Shown here: piece by piece, positions 5,863 to 23,409 of the stretch
How positions within the stretch are numbered: position 1 is the first letter of the stretch
Layout: each line of letters starts with the position of its first letter
Source of the DNA: a virus
IMG/VR virus record: IMGVR_UViG_3300017714_000125
Coordinates: 1-27,143 of that record
Length of the DNA stretch: 27,143 nt
Reading direction: 5' to 3' (one strand)
Made by a program: the position numbers and the translations under genes
Notes under the pieces: generated by a model
Databases searched by the model: none
Told to the model about the DNA's origin: nothing
The model's input: the letters and a program-made list of their open reading frames with translations, nothing else

Positions 5863-6034
5863 AGTTGGAGATCTGGTGGAGGTGACCGTGCGTCACGACA
5901 CAAAATGTATGGGCATCATTGTTGAACCCTACTATAGTCCAGCGGGTTGTGAGTGGTTGGTGAATCGCCTGAATGGTGACGGAAATATTATCTGTTGCCC
6001 AACTGATCTGGAGATGGTGAATGAGAGTAGGTGA
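5855..6034 (+). CDS. small VGDLV (SH3-like) protein
   Basis: This 59-residue protein begins MFKVGDLVEVTVRHDTKCMG, then IIVEPYYS, then WLVNRLNGDG and LEMVNESR. It is a minimal member of the family. The ATG at 5855 follows CCGAGG; a longer upstream frame lacks a ribosome site. It is the first of three tandem, overlapping members (5855, 6021, 6211). Function unknown. Confidence 0.7.
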   Translation: MFKVGDLVEVTVRHDTKCMGIIVEPYYSPAGCEWLVNRLNGDGNIICCPTDLEMVNESR

Positions 6035-6224
6035 TTTGGTGAGGCTCCCAGCAGGGACCAGTCGACATTGGGATTTGAGTTCCCCGATTGGTCTGTTGGT
6101 GGAGAAGTTGCCCAGAGAGGATAAACTGGAGTACGACTGGAAAGTCCTAGTTGACGGACAATACATTGAGTTCGGCAGGCAGATTGAGGACTCCTCTGAG
6201 GTGGTGAGCATTGCAGGTAGGTGA
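6021..6224 (+). CDS. small VGDLV (SH3-like) protein
   Basis: This 67-residue protein begins MRVGDLVRLPAGTSRHWDLS, followed by PIGLLVEKLP, YDWKVLVDG and VVSIAGR. Its start overlaps the preceding copy by 14 nt, with GGAG about 7 nt upstream. It is the second of three tandem members and probably arose by local duplication and divergence. Function unknown. Confidence 0.7.
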   Translation: MRVGDLVRLPAGTSRHWDLSSPIGLLVEKLPREDKLEYDWKVLVDGQYIEFGRQIEDSSEVVSIAGR

Positions 6225-6414: not shown

Positions 6415-6613
6415 TGGGTTTGGCTACGCCAAAGTTTATTGGACGATAGTTATGAGATTGTATTGTGATTGTGAGGCTGGCGATCGAAGAATCGAAGAAG
6501 TAAAAAATGCTTTGCGTGAAGTGGGTCTGGATCCAGAAAGCCCAGAATATAAATGGACTCGTAGGAGCGAGGTGGTTGAGAGGAGGAACAAGCATTGGAA
6601 AAAGGAGACTTAG
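6389..6613 (+). CDS. small zinc-binding protein
   Basis: This 74-residue protein has CSHCNGFGY near the N-terminus, like one DnaJ-type C-x-x-C-x-G-x-G zinc half-site. LYCDCEAGDRR follows about 20 residues later, giving four cysteines for one zinc. The C-terminal half is a charged helix (EEVKNALREVGLD, then VVERRNKHWKKET). It overlaps both neighbours by 19-26 nt. Small four-cysteine phage proteins of this type are common; their function is generally unknown. Confidence 0.65.
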   Translation: MQRVCSHCNGFGYAKVYWTIVMRLYCDCEAGDRRIEEVKNALREVGLDPESPEYKWTRRSEVVERRNKHWKKET

Positions 6614-6825
6614 TAAGGTGCCGTGAATCCGATTTCATGGGTCGAACCGACGGCAGCTTTACCATGACGGGTATCTTGGTTAGTTATGATAAGTTGATGA
6701 AGAGGGCAGATGTTTTAATTAATGAGACGGGTGCCCTTCGTGTCTTTAGGGCGAATGACGTGCAGTTACTCAAGCGCAGCCCAGAGAACGTTGAAAAATT
6801 AAAAGGAAGTGAAAATGATTCTTGA
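6595..6825 (+). CDS. SH3-like protein, paralogue of the gene at 23402
   Basis: This 76-residue protein starts at TTG 6595 as M-EKGDLVRCRESDFMGRTDG. The C-terminal half, NETGALRVFRANDVQLLKRS then PENVEKLKG, is clearly related to the 23402 protein (DTGAIERFPARDVEIIKRS, then PENVKFLKE). The shared KRSPENV tail goes beyond the generic VGDLV pattern, so these two are true paralogues. The start overlaps the upstream gene by 19 nt. Function unknown. Confidence 0.7.
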   Translation: MEKGDLVRCRESDFMGRTDGSFTMTGILVSYDKLMKRADVLINETGALRVFRANDVQLLKRSPENVEKLKGSENDS

Positions 6826-6952: not shown

Positions 6953-7486
6953 GTGGCTGAGTTAAAAATCTTCACGGGTCCGATGTATGGAGGCAAGACC
7001 ACTCGACTCTTGTCTGCCTTGGAAAGATACTCATATCAGAAAAAAAACATCGCCCTCTTTAAGCCGTCTGTAGACGAACGATACTCAATTGAGTCAGTTG
7101 TCACACACTCTGGCATTGAGTGGGCTGCACACCGTGTGCCAAACGGTGAAGAAATCTTAAAGCAAATGCCGTTCTGCACGGATGTTGTCGCTGTTGACGA
7201 AATGTTTATGATTGAGGGGTCCGCTGATGCGGTCATTGAATTGTATAAGTCTGGAAAGACTGTTTTAATTTCCACGCTCCAGCTTTCTTACAGAGCCGAA
7301 CCGTTTGAAGAGGTTCAGATGATTATGCCATTTGCTACGAGCGTCGAAGTTTGCCCAGCCGTTTGTTTTTGTGGAGAAGACGCTTACTTTACGCACCGCC
7401 TCAGCGAAGGCGATGAATTAATTCAGGTTGGCGGATTAGAACAATACGAGCCAAGGTGCCTGAAACATATTAAATACGAGAAATGA
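6953..7486 (+). CDS. tdk: thymidine kinase (type II)
   Basis: This 177-residue enzyme phosphorylates thymidine with ATP, salvaging dTMP for phage DNA synthesis. Visible features are the Walker A loop GPMYGGKT (9-16), the DE pair (VDEMF, 81-85, with Glu83 as likely general base), LSYRAEPF (111-118; the usual lasso is DFRGxPF) and the C-terminal zinc module with C134, C138, C140, C169 and H172. The canonical first zinc pair is CxxC; here AVCFCG has the cysteines one residue closer, so C134 may take part. The start is GTG 6953, adjoining the upstream stop. Confidence 0.92.
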   Translation: MAELKIFTGPMYGGKTTRLLSALERYSYQKKNIALFKPSVDERYSIESVVTHSGIEWAAHRVPNGEEILKQMPFCTDVVAVDEMFMIEGSADAVIELYKSGKTVLISTLQLSYRAEPFEEVQMIMPFATSVEVCPAVCFCGEDAYFTHRLSEGDELIQVGGLEQYEPRCLKHIKYEK

Positions 7487-7508
7487 AATGGTAAAAAGGA
7501 GAAACTAT

Positions 7509-8567
7509 ATGCCATCACTTTATGGATTAAATAATACAAGCAGAGACTTCTCAAGGAAAGATAGTTGGGGGAAGAACCAGTTCAACTCATCGTTCCCGGC
7601 ATCGCTGTGTTGTTATATGTCAGGCAAGGGAATGGAATCAAACTATATTGTTGTAGATGACAATCTCGACATATCTATCGACACAATTCCGTTCGGTCAA
7701 GCCTTCGGCGTAGATCCTCAATCGGAAGAGTGCTACTTTTCCTTTGAGTCAACCTATCAGCCATTCCAGCAGTTCGTGGAGGGAGCCCTGCCCAGAACTG
7801 ATTTGGTTGTAAAGAACTCTCATGGCGATGTTGCAGCCCTTGAGGTCAAACTCACAGCTTTGCCAGACCACACAACCTGCACACTCACAGAGGATTTATA
7901 TGGGTCAGAGATTGTGGTGCGTCCGGATACCATTGTTTATCTTTGCTGTTCATTGGCGAAGACGATAGGGAGGACGGCAGTACAAAAGATCTTTTCTCAG
8001 GGCATTAAGTTGTACGACTGGTCCGATGCGAATCGAGTGCTTCAGAACATGGAGAAGATCCAAGACACAATTAATTTAATTGTGGACACAGCACAAGACA
8101 GCCCACAGCCATTCTTGTTGCAGCCAGTATGGAAGACCGAGGGTAAATCTCCCCAGTTGGCTGACAACTGCTTGGATACCTTTATCTGGTCTGACGTTGC
8201 TTTCTTGAAGTTTGTCCAGAACATCAGCCAGAAGACGAGCACAACAAAAATAAATCGACAGCAGCGCACGCTTGTATGGATTTATAAAATGTTGTCAGAC
8301 TATGGAGAGTACGGGACATTCAACCACGAGGCGATCATTGATGGGTTGTCCTACAACACAAAGAATGACAAAGCATTTGCGAGCAGCGGCGTGGTAACAA
8401 ATAAATATATGAGCAGTCCAAGCTTAGTCAAGCCAAGGGTAAGCAAGGACGAGATTAAAGAAATTATATTGAGTGGCGGACAACAGATGCTTCAACCAGA
8501 GCGTAGGTTCGATGCTATTATTTATAATTCCCCAGACATCTTCGATGCCGACAAGCCGGAGACGTAA
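7509..8567 (+). CDS. type II restriction endonuclease, HindVP/HgiDI-like
   Basis: This protein is about 352 residues long. Its N-terminus, LYGLNNTSRDFSRKDSWGKN then QFNSSFPASL, closely matches what I recall of the HindVP restriction endonuclease family (Pfam RE_HindVP), whose members cut GRCGYC. A PD-(D/E)xK-type centre is visible: RTDLV (Asp98), then LEVKLTALPD (Glu112, Lys114), then EIVVRPDTIVYL. ATG 7509 has AAGGAG 7 nt upstream and aligns with the family start; ATG 7488 lacks one. No methyltransferase is present in the window. It directly follows tdk and probably shares its transcript. A role in degrading host or competitor DNA is an inference. Confidence 0.8.
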   Translation: MPSLYGLNNTSRDFSRKDSWGKNQFNSSFPASLCCYMSGKGMESNYIVVDDNLDISIDTIPFGQAFGVDPQSEECYFSFESTYQPFQQFVEGALPRTDLVVKNSHGDVAALEVKLTALPDHTTCTLTEDLYGSEIVVRPDTIVYLCCSLAKTIGRTAVQKIFSQGIKLYDWSDANRVLQNMEKIQDTINLIVDTAQDSPQPFLLQPVWKTEGKSPQLADNCLDTFIWSDVAFLKFVQNISQKTSTTKINRQQRTLVWIYKMLSDYGEYGTFNHEAIIDGLSYNTKNDKAFASSGVVTNKYMSSPSLVKPRVSKDEIKEIILSGGQQMLQPERRFDAIIYNSPDIFDADKPET

Positions 8568-8901: not shown

Positions 8902-8930
8902 TTGACTTCTGAGTTCTCGTTTGCTATAGT
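8902..8930 (+). promoter_or_regulatory. sigma70 promoter
   Basis: TTGACT (8902-8907), 17 bp, TATAGT (8925-8930). The spacer ends TTTGC immediately before the -10, as in the promoter at 9148. Confidence 0.8.
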
Positions 8931-9147: not shown

Positions 9148-9176
9148 TTGACTTCTAGGGTCAGCTTTGCTATAGT
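9148..9176 (+). promoter_or_regulatory. sigma70 promoter
   Basis: TTGACT (9148-9153), 17 bp, TATAGT (9171-9176). It closely resembles the promoter at 8902 (shared AGTTCTTGACTTCT and TTTGCTATAGT). A short AGGG/CCCT hairpin follows at 9189-9203. Confidence 0.8.
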
Positions 9177-9221
9177 ATAAAAGTGATGAGGGGTTGAAGC
9201 CCTAAAGGAGTGAGATATCAA

Positions 9222-9410
9222 ATGAAGGTCGGTAATTTAGTTGAACATGTCGTGAATCAGCCCGGTTTCCCAAAGAGATACGGCATTATTTATAAAAGCT
9301 ATCGCCTTGACAATGGCGAGATTGCCTCACATGGAGTGAGGTTCTTCGACGGCAAAGAGCCTGAATCAAATTCTTTTCGTGAACGTGACTTGAAAGTGGT
9401 GAGCAAATGA
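9222..9410 (+). CDS. small VGNLV (SH3-like) protein
   Basis: This 62-residue protein begins MKVGNLVEHVVNQPGFPKRY, then GIIYKSYR, ASHGVRFFDG and RDLKVVSK. ATG 9222 is preceded by AAAGGAG (9204-9210). It is similar in layout to the 23167 protein (MKVGSLVKEH...RYGIIIRN). Its stop overlaps the next start as ATGA. Function unknown. Confidence 0.7.
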   Translation: MKVGNLVEHVVNQPGFPKRYGIIYKSYRLDNGEIASHGVRFFDGKEPESNSFRERDLKVVSK

Positions 9411-10371: not shown

Positions 10372-10572
10372 ATGAATAATGAAGCAACGGTGGGGTGTCT
10401 AGTCCAGAAGAAAAAAGGCTATCAAGCGTTAGGGGTGGTGGTAAAGACAACAGACCATCCGTATCCATGGCACGGCAAAATCTACGATATTGCATGGCAA
10501 GACGGCTCAAACAGCAGGTATTCAAAGTTGGCGATGGAGTTGGAAGTAAAGGTTTTAACAACTTTTAATTAA
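10372..10572 (+). CDS. small SH3-like protein
   Basis: This 66-residue protein starts MNNEATVGCLVQKKKGYQAL, followed by GVVVKTTDH and YDIAWQDG, ending ELEVKVLTTFN. VGCLV stands for VGDLV, and the GVVVK and IAWQDG strands match the family. The ribosome site is weak (AAAAAGA). Its stop abuts the next open frame. Function unknown. Confidence 0.65.
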   Translation: MNNEATVGCLVQKKKGYQALGVVVKTTDHPYPWHGKIYDIAWQDGSNSRYSKLAMELEVKVLTTFN

Positions 10573-14124: not shown

Positions 14125-14153
14125 TTGACTTTTGGTTCCGCATCGAGTATATT
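14125..14153 (+). promoter_or_regulatory. sigma70 promoter for the VWA gene
   Basis: TTGACT (14125-14130), 17 bp, TATATT (14148-14153), then TGTAGGTTGGTTGAGA as in the moxR promoter. It lies in the duplicated segment. Confidence 0.85.
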
Positions 14154-14188
14154 GTATATGTAGGTTGGTTGAGAGAGGTAAAAAAGAA

Positions 14189-15481
14189 ATGACAGTTGAA
14201 ACCCCCAAGTTTGATTTGAATCGCCACACGGCTCGGCTCCTTATGAAAGAGCCGTTCTTTGCTGCCTTGTCTCGCAAGATTGACAAGAAGGCTACTACTG
14301 CGGTTCCAACTGCTGGTGTCAAGGTCAACCCTGATACCGGTCATTTCGAGATGGTTTACAATCCAGAATTCTTTCAGAAGCTGACCGACATTGAGCGGGG
14401 CGGTGTTCTTAAACATGAGTTCTATCACTTGATCTTTGAACATGTTACTGGTCGTCTCCCTGAAGAGGGCATGACCAAGAAGTGGAACTTCGCTACCGAT
14501 TTGGCTATTAACTCTCACTTGATCAATGAGTTGCCAGAAGGTGCCTTGATTCCCGGTGAGGGTCACTTCGCCGATATGCCACGAGGCAAGTCTGCTGAGT
14601 GGTACTTCGCCAATCTACCTGACGGTGGTGAGGGTGAAGAAGAAGGTAATGAAAAAGGCGAGGGTCAAGACGGTGAAGAAGGCGAGGGTCAAGGTAATGG
14701 CTCTGGCGAGGACAATGACGAAAACAATGAAAATTCTTCTGGTGGTCAAGGTCAAGGCGACGGAGAAGAAGGCGAAGGACAAGGCGGTCAGCCCCAAGAG
14801 TTCGATGACCACTCAGGCTGGGGAGAAGGCGACAATACTGCAAACGAGATTGCAAAGCAACGCCTAAAGGAAGCCATCAAGGAGGCAGCTAACGAAGCTA
14901 ATAAGGCTGGTAGCTGGGGCTCTGTTGGGGCTGACTGCCGACAGGAAATCATGGACCGTCTTACGGCTAAGATTGACTGGAAGAAAGTACTTCGCTACTT
15001 CATTAAGACTTCTCAGCGGGCTAACAAGTCTAGTACTGTGAAGCGCATTAACCGGCGTTACGCTTACATCCATCCCGGTCGTAAGATTAACCGTCAAGCC
15101 AAGATCGCTATCAGCGTCGACCAGTCTGGTTCTGTTGATAACGGTATGCTTTCTGCTTTCTTCACCGAGCTTAACAAGCTCGCTGGTCTGGCTGAGTTCA
15201 CGGTGATTCCGTTTGATACTGACGTTGGGGAAGATAAGGTCTTCGTCTGGAAGAAGGGCGAGAACCGAAAGTGGGAACGTGTTATGTGTGGTGGGACTTG
15301 CTTTGATGCTCCTACTGAATATGTCAACAAGCGTGACTTCGACGGTCACATCATCTTGACTGACCTTTGCGCTCCAAAGCCAAAGGCTTCAAAGTGTCAG
15401 AGAATGTGGATGACCACGGCGTACTATGCCCAACATCCATACTTTCAAACCAATGAGCGTGTTATCGCTATTGAAGACTAA
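14189..15481 (+). CDS. VWA-like metallopeptidase-domain protein, MoxR partner
   Basis: This 430-residue protein has three parts. Residues 1-145 hold a zinc site HEFYH (76-80) and LATDL-like helices (FATDLAINSH), as in the metallopeptidase domain joined to DUF2201. Residues 146-205 are a low-complexity Gly/Glu/Gln linker with repeats of GEEGEGQG. The C-terminus is a VWA-like fold with the MIDAS motif DQSGS (311-315). Known MoxR-VWA pairs act together, so this is the likely partner or substrate adaptor of the preceding ATPase. ATG 14189 follows GAGAGAGG. An upstream in-frame start at 14132 falls inside the promoter and is rejected. Confidence 0.85.
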   Translation: MTVETPKFDLNRHTARLLMKEPFFAALSRKIDKKATTAVPTAGVKVNPDTGHFEMVYNPEFFQKLTDIERGGVLKHEFYHLIFEHVTGRLPEEGMTKKWNFATDLAINSHLINELPEGALIPGEGHFADMPRGKSAEWYFANLPDGGEGEEEGNEKGEGQDGEEGEGQGNGSGEDNDENNENSSGGQGQGDGEEGEGQGGQPQEFDDHSGWGEGDNTANEIAKQRLKEAIKEAANEANKAGSWGSVGADCRQEIMDRLTAKIDWKKVLRYFIKTSQRANKSSTVKRINRRYAYIHPGRKINRQAKIAISVDQSGSVDNGMLSAFFTELNKLAGLAEFTVIPFDTDVGEDKVFVWKKGENRKWERVMCGGTCFDAPTEYVNKRDFDGHIILTDLCAPKPKASKCQRMWMTTAYYAQHPYFQTNERVIAIED

Positions 15482-22958: not shown

Positions 22959-23170
22959 TGATAGTTGAGATCAAAAACCTAACCGATAAGATTATTAAGT
23001 TTGAAGAAGGAGAAATGGAGTACGATGAGGTTGTTTCATTTTTTCAAGAACTAGTTAACACGGGGCTTGTTTGGAACCTACAGGGTTTCTATGGAAGGAC
23101 CGCAGTAGAGCTTATTCAGACAGGGGCAGTCGTCGTCCCGGACGCTGATTGCGAAGGAGAAGTTGAGTGA
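22958..23170 (+). CDS. conserved phage hypothetical protein (LQGFYGRTA motif)
   Basis: This 70-residue protein includes YDEVVSFFQELVNTGLVWNL, then QGFYGRTAVELIQTGAVV. I recall this small phage family from the motif FFQ.L.DTG..W.LQG.YGRTA..LI..G (possibly DUF7417). Its function is unknown. ATG 22958 is in a TAATG overlap; the upstream in-frame ATG 22946 lies in the exonuclease gene. The next start is inside its stop region. Confidence 0.75.
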   Translation: MIVEIKNLTDKIIKFEEGEMEYDEVVSFFQELVNTGLVWNLQGFYGRTAVELIQTGAVVVPDADCEGEVE

Positions 23171-23409
23171 AAGTAGGAAGTCTTGTAAAGGAGCATTTAT
23201 TTACCACGAAGCAGGGTGAGGTGATCGAAAGATACGGAATTATAATTCGGAATGAGGCTGAGGTTAGTTTTGACGGTTACGTCGAAGTGGCATGGTCGAC
23301 TCATAAATCACACCCAGTAGGTTCGGATCAAAATGTGACAATCTCTCTCTCAGAGATAGAAAAAATAGAAGTCATTGCCCTACCGCCCAACAAACAAGGA
23401 AATGAATAG
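23167..23409 (+). CDS. VGSLV (SH3-like) protein, GTG start
   Basis: This 80-residue protein begins MKVGSLVKEHLFTTKQGEVI, ERYGIIIRNEAE, then YVEVAWSTHK and IEKIEVIALPP. It follows the family pattern closely and is most like the 9222 protein. GTG 23167 overlaps the upstream stop, with GAAGGAGAAG before it. Function unknown. Confidence 0.7.
   Translation: MKVGSLVKEHLFTTKQGEVIERYGIIIRNEAEVSFDGYVEVAWSTHKSHPVGSDQNVTISLSEIEKIEVIALPPNKQGNE

Follow-up and report, generated by a model that had tools for sequence, protein, structure and literature searches.

A solitary HindVP/BsaHI-family restriction endonuclease gene in a GRCGYC-free marine phage sequence

Introduction

The 27,143-base record of an uncultivated marine phage (IMG/VR IMGVR_UViG_3300017714_000125), analysed here in full and called the window, encodes a type II restriction endonuclease of the RE_HindVP/BsaHI family, contains no detectable DNA methyltransferase gene, and lacks every form of GRCGYC, the known site of the BsaHI family (GR^CGYC). 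The enzyme family is known, and the novelty is its unusual setting, which is solitary, phage-borne and site-free. Solitary type II endonucleases ought to be lethal or useless, and they are scarce in phages: 831 phage genomes held 12 solitary endonucleases versus 143 solitary methyltransferases (PMC4176335). PacI and other solitary endonucleases likewise have no methyltransferase, and for PacI this has been explained by the absence of its sites in the genome (PMC3488263); PacI, however, is bacterial, whereas the window enzyme is phage-borne. Intact catalytic residues, no nearby methyltransferase and an absent site together make a testable model of a sequence-protected phage weapon. The case also draws attention to a marine phage clade with member-specific purging of restriction sites.

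The reading we propose is that the gene encodes an active, solitary, site-specific phage endonuclease of the BsaHI/HgiDI type (GR^CGYC), which would be spared by the absence of its own sites and would cut other DNA. We hold this reading to be evenly poised between right and wrong, and three other explanations are weighed below where the evidence bears on them.

Results

An intact member of the BsaHI family

The endonuclease gene occupies positions 7509–8567 on the plus strand and encodes 352 amino acids. A preliminary description had recognized a HindVP/HgiDI-family protein with a D...ExK core, and both points were borne out. The Pfam profile RE_HindVP (PF09519) matches over all of its positions (1–332 of 332; E = 1.6e-133, 445 bits with a cut-off of 25 bits), and the PADLOC profile REase_II also matches (E = 1.4e-108). 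Assignment to the family is firm, and the protein appears from its sequence to be full-length and intact. D98, E112 and K114 are invariant in alignments of 11 and 12 members that include bacterial, plasmid and viral relatives. These residues form the predicted catalytic hairpin (7800–7850, plus strand), with D98 at 7800–7802 and E112-V-K114 at 7842–7850. The latter is equivalent to E130-V-K132 of BsaHI, the EVK that Neely and Roberts propose as catalytic (PMC2413257).

The protein also carries the other family motifs as WGKNQF, KNDKAFA and QPERRFD (family forms WGKNQF, (Q/K)(T/N)DKAF(A/S) and SPERRFD). The PERRFD motif, identified by alignment, spans residues 330–335 (8496–8513, plus strand), and its BsaHI counterpart is required for activity: alanine mutants showed that P349, E350, R351, F353 and D354 are needed, whereas S348A and R352A are tolerated (PMC2413257). 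The sole change within SPERRFD, S to Q, falls at the position where BsaHI tolerates S348A. Overall, the phage protein resembles R.BsaHI, R.HgiDI and R.HgiGI (GR^CGYC) in full-length homology, in WGKNQF, NDKAFA, PERRFD and ExK, and in a length of ~350 amino acids.

Structure prediction, which the preliminary description had suggested as a check, gave a divided answer. In the AlphaFold2 model (pLDDT 83.5), a beta hairpin (strands 97–103, 106–113, and just after) carries D98 and ExK, as expected for PD-(D/E)xK enzymes, but fold comparison with the PDB returned no match at E ≤ 0.001, EcoRV appearing only at E = 5.4. Sequence comparison with the PDB gave nothing useful, and the best viral fold match of the model was H8ZJN2, a 284-aa protein.

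Position and start of the gene

The ORF finder placed the start at ATG 7488 (359 aa), with ATG 7509 (352 aa) as the alternative. The latter is the likelier start, because a putative Shine-Dalgarno sequence, AAGGAG (7496–7501, plus strand), lies 7 nt upstream. As had been described, the gene follows tdk in a series of phage genes: the thymidine kinase gene (6953–7486, plus strand; PF00265, E = 2e-36) ends 22 nt before the endonuclease start on the same strand, and the surroundings consist of small phage genes. A common nuclease slot behind tdk in the clade was considered and rejected, since relatives carry other small genes at that place. Just downstream of the endonuclease gene are two near-identical promoter-like sequences (8902–8930 and 9148–9176), each TTGACT-17-TATAGT with TG ahead of the -10. 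The window is also rich in small proteins that have a VGDLV-like motif near their start (e.g., 6021–6224, 6595–6825, 9210–9410, 10372–10572 and 23167–23409); they make up an expanded family around the endonuclease gene and are abundant in related phages too.

Absence of GRCGYC and of other restriction sites

Across the whole record (1–27,143), GRCGYC was observed 0 times against 13.5 expected from trinucleotides. Synonymous-codon shuffles gave a mean of 15.3 sites and reached zero in 0 of 1000 cases; order-2 simulations reached zero in 0 of 300, and in neither set did the count fall below 5. The earlier argument that a lone enzyme must spare its own genome thus agrees with the available 27 kb. 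The window enzyme probably shares the GRCGYC specificity, as suggested by homology and by two bacterial contigs whose enzymes are 47–48% identical to it. These contigs contain 0 GRCGYC sites versus 114 expected and 0 versus 50 expected, which supports the same specificity.

GRCGYC is not the only missing site. Also at zero in the window are GGCC (60 expected), CGCG (34), CCWGG (34), CASTG (36), RGCGCY (11), CCYRGG (13) and TTCGAA (10). The loss of GRCGYC as a by-product of these was considered and rejected: RGCGCY covers GGCGCC, yet 11.7 of the 13.5 expected sites are uncovered. As a match for the other avoided sites, no restriction family was among the Pfam families listed for the window's other ORFs, and RE_HaeIII was not found in the 23 records searched. 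The endonuclease gene itself has 0 of the nine genome-avoided sites versus 7.8 expected. Because it lacks all nine, like the rest of the genome, and has its own ribosome-binding site, the gene appears resident, and an assembly chimera was rejected.

Related phages show that GRCGYC can be depleted where the gene is absent. The closest relative, G001, has 7 sites versus 42 expected, and the endonuclease gene is absent from its 104 kb; G046 has 2 versus 22 expected, and the gene is absent from its available sequence. Like the window, G001 has lost CGCG, CCWGG, CCYRGG and TTCGAA, and it has one GGCC versus 182 expected, whereas CASTG and RGCGCY occur in it at normal frequency, unlike in the window. 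The set of purged restriction sites differs between members of the clade. Avoidance of GRCGYC by the clade as a whole was rejected: G004 is enriched (168 sites versus 75 expected), and the clade median of the observed/expected ratio is 0.71. The ratio is nevertheless below 0.15 in 8 of 77 clade loci.

Numerous restriction systems plainly confront the phages of this clade. The lack of GRCGYC therefore permits self-sparing but is no proof that the site was lost through the action of the phage's own enzyme. Nor is this loss unique evidence, because other sites are also missing and G001 is depleted in GRCGYC while lacking the gene. Host restriction alone could explain it, because the other sites were lost with no matching phage enzyme in the window. 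BsaHI-type restriction systems of the hosts may then have purged GRCGYC, the phage having acquired its enzyme independently, whether active, weakly active or silent. The absence of at least seven other restriction sites from the window, the depletion in G001 and G046, and the divergent site loss among clade members all fit this explanation; against it, the gene is unbroken, retains the residues that are key in the family, and has lost the same sites as the remaining genome. In addition, the GACGCC/GGCGTC forms of the site are present in G001 (7 versus 20 expected) and absent from the window (0 versus 6.3 expected), although this difference is weak. On this evidence, we judge the host-driven explanation unlikely, though the strongest of the alternatives to an enzyme that is active and spared by the absence of its site.

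No methyltransferase in the window

The preliminary description had reported no DNA methyltransferase in the window, and three approaches agree with it. None was found among the 59 window ORFs by Pfam (25 of 27 matched families listed), and none in the record by PF00145 and PF01555 searches or by a motif scan. The absence of a nearby methyltransferase within the 27 kb is therefore firm. It applies to the window only, because the record is probably a fragment of a genome. A search with the window's DUF2201/VWA protein retrieved IMG/VR phage contigs that form a large clade and in many cases are 185–200 kb long; from these sizes, the full genome probably measures ~185–200 kb, of which the window would be a fragment covering perhaps 15%. 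This query protein (14132–15481) carries the PHROG 1314 label HNH endonuclease, whereas Pfam finds a DUF2201 metallopeptidase-like domain and a VWA-like domain beside an AAA ATPase; the PHROG name looks wrong.

Other members of the enzyme family are consistently paired. An adjacent C5 methyltransferase is present in all 17 with intact flanks (10 bacterial, 2 plasmid and 5 viral), a count that leaves out L133, which nearly duplicates L134 and is truncated by the end of its contig, and L011, truncated inside the gene. R.BsaHI, R.HgiDI and R.HgiGI are likewise paired with a C5 methyltransferase, whereas the phage has none in 27 kb, and this available part of its genome lacks the site instead. The five viral members (L131, L132, L134, L135 and L136) are 31–42% identical to the window enzyme, and the methyltransferase is adjacent in 5 of 5. 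The contig L012 is titled Candidatus Gracilibacteria; its gene content looks cyanobacterial, and the bin name may be wrong.

A HindVP-type enzyme was absent from 50 of 50 related phage records in a search whose positive control worked, and another search found no family member among 50,697 phage records. Scanning IMG/VR with a profile yielded six HindVP-family loci, all distant; each has a methyltransferase or is truncated where its contig ends. Because none of the 50 related records has such an enzyme and a C5 methyltransferase occurs in only 1 of 22, the endonuclease appears to be an accessory gene of rare occurrence, in a region of this phage that varies between relatives. One related phage, G004, has a candidate restriction-modification cassette a few kb after tdk (L119; G004:C1:169914-172659), where an N6_N4 methyltransferase is directly preceded by two ORFs, one of 163 aa that may contain a nuclease motif and one of 466 aa.

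These data also bear on whether the window holds one half of a split restriction-modification system, its cognate C5 methyltransferase being encoded beyond the sequenced stretch of the genome. The small share of the genome covered and the 17 of 17 pairing speak for a partner elsewhere; however, in all 17 cases the methyltransferase is immediately adjacent and never distant, any C5 methyltransferase at all is confined to a single one of the 22 related phage records, and a 27 kb sequence with 0 sites leaves little to protect. We consider a split system quite improbable. It is very doubtful that the protein is a restriction-system remnant that binds DNA and has lost its activity or taken on another role: HindVP is a family member with no detected activity (PMC2413257), and two bacterial loci (L008 near 4470 and L010 near 2230) have a HindVP-type endonuclease interrupted by a stop codon or a shift of frame beside a C5 methyltransferase that is still open, but the ExK that HindVP lacks is present in the phage enzyme, as are the essential C-terminal residues.

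Discussion

How could a phage use a restriction endonuclease with no partner methyltransferase? What we infer for the activity, specificity, expression and targets of this enzyme is the following. The phage would make a catalytically competent type II endonuclease, and its own genome would remain uncut because its DNA lacks GRCGYC, so that during infection the enzyme could cleave whatever other unmethylated DNA the cell contains. One possible target is the host chromosome, whose cleavage would help the phage to take over the cell and provide it with nucleotides, a process that T4 endonuclease II initiates in T4 infection. The other is the genomes of co-infecting phages, in which case the enzyme would serve interference competition. 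Candidate rival targets exist, since the related phages G002, G003 and G004 carry 29–168 GRCGYC sites (92, 29 and 168, respectively).

The two proposed targets follow precedents for each. T4 endonuclease II has a GIY-YIG fold, unrelated to that of the window enzyme, and T4 is protected from it by modified cytosine and not by site absence. This nuclease (denA) starts host DNA breakdown while the phage DNA is spared (PMC6071114). For rival phages, the homing endonuclease gp210 of PhiPA3 is a sequence-specific phage nuclease that harms co-infecting phage (PMC11620839); it is an intron-borne HNH enzyme with its target in one gene and, unlike the window protein, is not a restriction enzyme. More generally, phages might recruit a type II endonuclease without its methyltransferase, purge its site and weaponise it against the host and co-infecting relatives, a generalization that we offer tentatively and consider somewhat doubtful.

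A further observation on the clade concerns G004, a marine phage, in which a 396-aa ORF (L112:13253-14440) has an apparent RuBisCO_large match (E = 4.3e-32, the ORF being assigned by motif) and lies near nucleotide-sugar and glycosyltransferase genes.
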